Positions 15,008 to 15,815 of a DNA stretch of 64,000 nucleotides are shown piece after piece. Origin of the DNA: Alphaproteobacteria bacterium (GTDB taxonomy: Bacteria; Pseudomonadota; Alphaproteobacteria; Thalassobaculales; Thalassobaculaceae); contig JANSYS010000011.1 in assembly GCA_024742275.1 (NCBI GenBank), positions 1 to 64,000 of the forward strand. The letters are read 5' to 3'. Positions within the stretch are counted from its first letter, which is position 1, and each line of letters begins with the position of its first letter. The translations under genes and the position numbers were made by a program. The notes beneath the pieces are model-generated. The model worked only from the letters and a program-made list of their open reading frames with translations, was not told the DNA's origin and ran no database searches.

Positions 15008-15346
15008 ATGGAAAATCTTATCCGTCTCCCGAGCACGCGTAAGTCAGTCCGGCACTTCTTCTTCACACGCCATGAACTGGGCCAACTGCTTTCGCTCTAC
15101 GCCAGCCGGGTCGCCGCGGGCGAATGGCGCGACTATGCGCTCGACAGGCAGGACGACATGGCCGTCTTCTCCATCTTCCGGCACACCCACGAGCGTCCGC
15201 TGTACTCCGTCTCCAAGACGCAGCGGCGCGGGCAGAAGCGGCCGACCTTCACCCTGTTCGCCGGTCCGAAGCGCCTGAAGACGAGTGCCAGCCTGCTCGA
15301 CGTGCTCGATACCTTCGAGAAGCTGCCCCGCTTGGTTCAGAGCTGA
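15008..15346 (+). CDS. DUF2794 domain-containing protein
   Basis: 112 residues. The order of segments RHELGQLLSLYASRVAAGEW, DYALD, AVFSIFRHTHERPLYSVSK and LFAGPKRLKTSASLLDVLD is that of the alphaproteobacterial DUF2794 family, whose function is unknown. It has no signal peptide or membrane helix. The ATG at 15008 gives the family-typical N-terminus and length. It stands alone, divergent from the yfgM operon. An unrelated SOS-type promoter follows about 120 bases after its stop. Confidence 0.85.
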   Translation: MENLIRLPSTRKSVRHFFFTRHELGQLLSLYASRVAAGEWRDYALDRQDDMAVFSIFRHTHERPLYSVSKTQRRGQKRPTFTLFAGPKRLKTSASLLDVLDTFEKLPRLVQS

Positions 15347-15467: not shown

Positions 15468-15497
15468 TTGTTCACCTCAAATGTTCCTGATATGTTC
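15468..15497 (+). promoter_or_regulatory. SOS (LexA) box overlapping a sigma-70-type promoter
   Basis: GTTC at 15483-15486 and GTTC at 15494-15497 are separated by seven bases (CTGATAT). This is exactly the GTTC-N7-GTTC direct repeat that alphaproteobacterial LexA binds. A TTGTTC at 15468-15473 and a TATGTT at 15491-15496 are spaced by 17 bases and fit -35 and -10 boxes, so bound LexA would cover the -10. The ATG of the next gene is 37 bases downstream. The promoter assignment is by pattern only. Confidence 0.72.
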
Positions 15498-15533
15498 TCA
15501 TTCCAGACGATGGGATGAAGGAACGGTCGCGCC

Positions 15534-15815
15534 ATGGGACGGTTGAAGCGGGAGTTGATGGATCGGAAGGACCGGGCGCAGCGGGCGGCCCAACTGGGGG
15601 ATTTGCTGGCGGCGAAGGTCGGCGTCTTCTGCTGGTGCAACCGCTGCGGCCACAATGCCGAGGCGGCGACGGCCATGCTGGTGGCGCAGCTCGGACCCGA
15701 GTTCCCGGTACCGGAGATCGGCGCACGGATGCGCTGCAGCGCTTGCGGCTCGAAGGACGTGGCAACCCGCCCGGCCTGGCCGAGCCAGGGTCAGATCACC
15801 AAACACACCGCCTAG
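15534..15815 (+). CDS. Small zinc-ribbon-like protein, probable SOS-regulated, hypothetical
   Basis: 93 residues, not assigned to a named family. Two Cys pairs (CNRC near residues 35-38 and CSAC near 69-72) suggest a zinc ribbon. The first segment is basic and helical (MGRLKRELMDRKDRAQRAA), and the tail after the second pair is basic. It has no signal or membrane segment, so it is probably cytoplasmic. The ATG at 15534 has AAGGA ten bases upstream. The LexA box and promoter at 15468-15497 imply induction by DNA damage. A DNA-associated role would be a guess from the zinc ribbon and SOS control. Confidence 0.65.
   Translation: MGRLKRELMDRKDRAQRAAQLGDLLAAKVGVFCWCNRCGHNAEAATAMLVAQLGPEFPVPEIGARMRCSACGSKDVATRPAWPSQGQITKHTA

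Follow-up and report, generated by a model that had tools for sequence, protein, structure and literature searches.

A LexA-type operator conserved upstream of a small zinc-ribbon-type protein gene points to a probable, unnamed member of the alphaproteobacterial SOS response

The LexA motif of alphaproteobacteria is the direct repeat GTTC-N7-GTTC, and the available parts of the study that describes it give lexA, recA, an inducible translesion polymerase, uvrA and imuA-imuB-dnaE2 as the regulon core, with splB as a further predicted member (PMC3323433). The alphaproteobacteria covered in those parts are the ones with several chromosomes, a group other than the Thalassobaculaceae host of the locus discussed here. 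In addition, the accessible text of a second report describes Zn-ribbon-type proteins of uncharacterised function encoded close to SRAP and Ku (PMC3765255). Here we describe a gene for a small zinc-ribbon-type protein which resembles the known LexA/SOS regulon in having a GTTC-N7-GTTC repeat at its promoter, a LexA encoded in the same genome, and a box at lexA and recA that is identical or off by one mismatch, and which differs from it in that the gene is neither among the core genes listed above nor splB, as far as those parts of the source extend.

The LexA regulon is known; what is probably new is a member gene whose product belongs to an unnamed zinc-ribbon family. The gene is not named among the papers listed in the literature searches, nor in the available portions of PMC6120978, PMC13384398, PMC1839093, PMC6473078, PMC3323433 and PMC3765255, and it may stand under a locus tag in the original studies of the regulon (da Rocha 2008; Modell 2011; Erill 2004). 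Judged from its upstream sequence and that of its relatives, the gene is very probably under LexA control, and we put the probability of our main reading, namely SOS control jointly with a zinc-ribbon protein of unsettled role, at about 0.8.

The window, which is the whole stretch of 64,000 nucleotides that was analysed, carries all features of the locus on the forward strand. Read directly from the letters, the -35-like hexamer TTGTTC (15468-15473) is separated by a spacer of 17 nt (15474-15490) from the -10-like hexamer TATGTT (15491-15496), which lies within the LexA-type direct repeat GTTCCTGATATGTTC (GTTC-CTGATAT-GTTC; 15483-15497), the putative operator. A first, sequence-only reading of the window had proposed exactly this arrangement, a perfect repeat over a -10 box with a -35 element at 17 bases, and the letters bear it out. 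By manual count both hexamers are weak matches to sigma-70 elements, agreeing in three (-35-like) and four (-10-like) of six positions. A Shine-Dalgarno-like AAGGA (15518-15522) stands 11 bases before the ATG at 15534, and the box precedes the start codon, as had been noted, with 36 intervening bases in place of the 37 first counted. The start is backed by homologues, most of which begin with MG or MA and have a lysine at position 5. The open reading frame (15534-15815) encodes a protein of 93 residues, in which the two CxxC pairs that had been pointed out are readily found (C35-x2-C38 and C68-x2-C71). The upstream tandem neighbour is a DUF2794 gene (15008-15346; PF10984, E 1.2e-24), after which the box comes, and a gene for a PilZ protein follows downstream.

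Within the window, GTTC-N7-GTTC occurs twice against 2.11 expected occurrences and is thus no rarer than chance; since the single repeat is not significant alone, the case rests on its conservation upstream of relatives. Over the whole genome, 181 perfect repeats were counted against 52 for the backwards-read pattern, and the tighter form GTTC-N5-WTGTTC was found 18 times against once for the backwards-read control, several of these 18 copies being apparently intragenic.

Homologues were collected by scanning genome contigs with peptide patterns, which gave a set of 68 loci among the matches listed. Of these 68 listed loci, 66 have a perfect repeat in the 130 bp that precede the homologue, the reversed-pattern control being found in one of the 68, and elsewhere in the same loci the repeat occurs at background level (9 repeats, control 11, in 382,928 bases). 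The two listed loci that have no perfect box are L027, in which a one-mismatch box was recognised by manual reading, and L075, where the homologue lacks its N-terminal part. Among the 66 listed loci with a box, the orientation is forward in 47 and reverse in 19. A homologue in a Rhodospirillaceae metagenome-assembled genome (L040:3001-3279; locus of 68% G+C) carries an in-frame TGA at the conserved Trp34 and still has a perfect box upstream; either this gene is broken or the TGA stems from an error in sequencing.

The putative promoter elements recur together with the box. In the 47 forward-box relatives among the matches listed, the first three positions of the -10-like element are T in 46, A in 41 and T in 45, and the first base of the -35-like element is T in 43. 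Furthermore, the best hexamer at a spacer of 16-18 agrees with TTGACA at a mean of 3.8 of six positions in these 47 listed sequences, against 2.4 when the upstream bases are shuffled, with a spacer of 17 in 27 of them, 18 in 19 and 16 in one. Conservation over the same 47 listed sequences peaks at the box, at the preceding AAAT and at a TTG in the -35 position.

At the level of the order, a strong homologue was found in 21 of 36 genomes and the box lies upstream in all 21, as it does at one of three further weak places. Across the class, a profile from a 32-row alignment (model A1) matched in 41 of 289 genomes, and one from a broader 25-row set with distant members (model A2) in 72 of 386. From the 86 places taken, 11 repeats and three contig ends (L113, L207 and L212) were dropped, leaving 72 distinct loci with at least 130 bases upstream; ten weak A2 places were left out. 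With A1, a perfect box lies within 260 bp in 19 of the 23 loci scoring at least 75 bits and in 10 of the 49 below that line; the corresponding A2 figures, 24 of 29 and 5 of 43, are favoured by the six distant rows that A2 holds, which were chosen after most had been seen to have the box, and the A1 figures are therefore given beside them. Once those loci that were typed into A2 are taken out of its strong class, the box is present in 18 of 22. The 75-bit line was set after the class list had been inspected, and because of this post hoc threshold and the relatedness of the sequences the class p values (9e-7 for A1) are nominal. The strong class-wide hits that have no perfect box are L103, L110, L165 and L176, to which A2 adds L172. 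The box that the sequence-only reading had proposed to look for upstream of orthologues is thus present in the listed, order-level and class-wide sets alike, whose counts are not independent because the three sets overlap and are related.

The class scan also touched on other CxxC ribbon proteins. Alphaproteobacterial ribbons such as L114, L115, L121, L125 and L182-L190 share a similar cysteine spacing and a partial profile match with the protein described here, whereas they score lower and have no perfect box in the 260 bp upstream. Four weak-scoring CxxC ribbon proteins (L123, L180, L192 and L211) do carry a perfect LexA-type box in the 260 bp before the gene, and judged from these sequences the SOS regulon may have taken up related ribbon genes on separate occasions.

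Which gene the box serves can be read from its neighbourhood. Of the 68 listed loci, 48 have a DUF2794 gene no more than 700 bp upstream and on the strand of the homologue, and in 47 of them the box is located between both genes; in 17 of the 19 listed loci with a reverse box, the homologue is likewise preceded by a DUF2794 gene on its own strand. The box is present in 19 of the 20 listed loci that have no DUF2794 gene within 700 bp upstream, and in 17 of the 18 of those with at least 1000 bases upstream; two of these 20 have fewer than 200 bases of upstream sequence, and in seven DUF2794 lies at a greater distance. The genes downstream differ among loci, encoding PilZ, GcrA or DUF3126 proteins. 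As the box is kept where DUF2794 is not close and the downstream genes vary, it follows the zinc-ribbon gene and not the neighbours. That the box belongs to DUF2794 or to a divergent gene was considered and is unlikely, since it comes after a same-strand DUF2794 gene in 47 of the listed loci. Recurring neighbours are the genes for Der (which we take to be this protein from its sequence), a BamB-like protein, TPR_21, DUF2794, GcrA, DUF3126 and PilZ, and a shared repair-gene neighbour was not found in the loci searched, many of which span only 1-3 kb.

LexA scored above cut-off in all 25 homologue-bearing genomes tested, and lexA starts could be placed for 23 of 30 LexA-like loci, the other seven being L128, L129 and five second hits. 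Perfect repeats precede 20 of these 23 placed starts from homologue-bearing genomes at a distance of no more than 170 bp, the lexA loci L131, L137 and L143 being those that have none. The source genome encodes LexA, and its lexA box GTACCGTATTTGTTC is a one-mismatch form, while its recA has two one-mismatch boxes that are reversed relative to the gene. The reverse orientation seen at part of the zinc-ribbon loci is therefore common for this operator, which is turned the same way at recA and at many lexA genes. One genome (G425, 70% complete) has the gene and gave no LexA match, which speaks against a strict link between gene and repressor. Absence of LexA as the reason for absence of the gene was ruled out, as 12 of the 15 genomes of the order that lack the gene have LexA above cut-off.

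The closest named relatives of the protein among the matches listed come from a Thalassobaculaceae metagenome-assembled genome (97%) and from Thalassobaculum litoreum (84%). C35, C38, C68 and C71 are invariant in both the A1 and the A2 alignments, whereas C33 varies in distant members and is probably not a ligand. The peptide VFCWCNRC was among the patterns of the A1 homologue scan, so that the A1 invariance of residues 31-38 is biased; the A2 set varies there. Over the 25 rows of A2, P80 is invariant and W34, H40, R79, W82 and H91 are nearly so, a pattern of conservation (W34/H40/R79-P80-x-W82/H91) which suggests a functional surface outside the metal site. AlphaFold2 models the 93-residue protein with a mean pLDDT of 86.9 and block means of 94-96 over residues 21-80, predicting strands at 31-35, 41-44 and 76-80 and an N-terminal helix. 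A small zinc-ribbon fold is plausible from this model, and the Cys4 protein would be expected to bind zinc; the zinc-ribbon assignment of the sequence-only reading fits both the four conserved cysteines and the predicted fold, though the fold matches are weak. The net charge is +6, against a family mean of +2.6 and a range of -4 to +9.

With the known CxxC/CxxC zinc ribbons (the HypA zinc domain, TFIIS, Trf and the MCM N-terminal ribbon) the protein shares the four-cysteine arrangement and a weak likeness in profile and fold; it differs from them in falling below the curated cut-offs and in adding W34, H40, R79-P80-x-W82, H91 and the predicted N-terminal helix. The protein stays below the cut-off of every Pfam and NCBIfam model, a sequence comparison with solved structures gave one insignificant match (E 0.031), and PHROG gave weak matches only. 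A mobile or phage gene was discounted, as no relative was found in viral contigs (one scan), phages or plasmids, and a defence gene was likewise discounted by the lack of a PADLOC match.

Taken from these elements, a mechanism can be proposed. LexA would bind GTTC-N7-GTTC over the -10 element and thereby block RNA polymerase; upon DNA damage, RecA-stimulated cleavage of LexA would free the promoter, and the small, soluble zinc-ribbon protein would then accumulate. LexA binding and damage induction at this promoter are what we infer from the sequence. Against LexA control count the reverse boxes at 19 of the listed loci, the strong homologues and the lexA loci that have no perfect box, the imperfect boxes at lexA and recA of the source genome, and G425. 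The LexA-type site is kept in 66 of the 68 loci among the matches listed, also where the neighbours have changed, and the gene is therefore probably useful after DNA damage; with the SOS switch nearly always before it, it probably belongs to the SOS response without having been recognised as a member. As to its function, the protein may be a nucleic-acid-binding or protein-adaptor factor acting at damaged or stalled DNA. We hold this role class in damage tolerance tentatively, at somewhat less than even odds, and favour it over roles in transcription or translation, in the inhibition of division, or as a metallochaperone, the evidence that separates them being thin: the fold matches are weak, the mean charge of the family is low, and the loci searched gave no repair gene as a shared neighbour.

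Among these alternatives, the one that survives best keeps the LexA-controlled promoter and lets the protein act on RNA polymerase or the ribosome, slowing or restarting expression after damage in place of acting on DNA. It is possible, if rather doubtful. The TFIIS zinc ribbon gave weak matches in five of 25 members (best E 0.0028), and the top VIA match is the translation recovery factor Trf (Z 3.9), with Elf1 in an RNA polymerase II complex at Z 2.9. However, the matches to TFIIS, Trf and Elf1 are all weak, that to Trf being the best that VIA returned, and the N-terminal domains of MCM (Z up to 3.6) and the zinc domain of PolC (Z 3.2) match just as well. A checkpoint role in the SOS response, in which the protein would hold back cell division, is unlikely. 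Small stand-alone SOS proteins are often division inhibitors, as SulA, YneA and SidA illustrate, and the gene for the cell-cycle regulator GcrA (PF07750) is present in 12 of 85 clustered loci; the product considered here is predicted to be a soluble Cys4 ribbon, unlike SidA and DidA, which are membrane proteins.

It is very improbable that the box arose by chance or is something other than a LexA site, with the gene standing outside the SOS response. The bare repeat is indeed at chance frequency in the window and several genomic copies appear intragenic, but a box at promoter distance from nearly every listed homologue and from all 21 in the order, together with the same motif at lexA, leads us to reject chance by conservation. 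A HypA-type metallochaperone is the least credible of all, since HypA (PF01155), though the commonest weak Pfam match (15 of 25 members, best E 0.0033) and among the top fold matches (best Foldseek hit, itself weak at E 0.02), reaches 16.9 bits against a cut-off of 28.9 with a match that spans the zinc domain, and the N-terminal nickel motif of HypA is absent from the protein.

For the favoured role at damaged DNA, one neighbourhood is of particular interest. Directly downstream of the distant zinc-ribbon homologue L110 lies an SRAP gene (L216:2530-3108, equivalent to L110:782-1360), the only genome among the loci searched in which SRAP stands beside the zinc-ribbon gene. SRAP proteins usually start with MCGR, and the frame as read does not open in this way. 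The Zn-ribbons described next to SRAP and Ku resemble the present family in being uncharacterised proteins of this type that are tied to SOS genes, and differ in that SRAP adjacency is confined here to one genome, the comparison being one of descriptions in the available text; together, the adjacency and those ribbons are a lead only for the role (PMC3765255). A broader proposal would make the gene an old member of the SOS regulon in Thalassobaculum, Nisaea, Kiloniellales, SAR116 and more distant alphaproteobacteria, encoding a stand-alone zinc-ribbon damage-tolerance factor with its own conserved surface (CWCNRC-x-H, RPxWP, G-x-x-x-RH) and a site of action at damaged DNA, perhaps in concert with SRAP-type lesion shielding; in this full form we regard it as speculative and on the unlikely side. 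As SAR116 genomes carry the gene, it may bear on the survival of sunlit marine bacteria, and being small and easily deleted it is a target for finding a new SOS function.

Two other LexA-like boxes deserve mention. The box GTTCCTTATTTGTTC (L084, G000:C34:50122-50136) lies upstream of a GapR-like gene, with a divergent RNA methyltransferase gene on its other side, and its position makes SOS control of a nucleoid protein possible. The box GTTCTTGATTTGTTC (L090, G000:C48:343992-344006) is one of the 18 tighter repeats of the genome and is found some 25 bases ahead of what may be the start of a gene for a radical-SAM protein, the mechanically called open reading frame starting before the box; the gene may perhaps be a splB-type photolyase, which the available parts of the motif study list as a predicted alphaproteobacterial SOS gene (PMC3323433).
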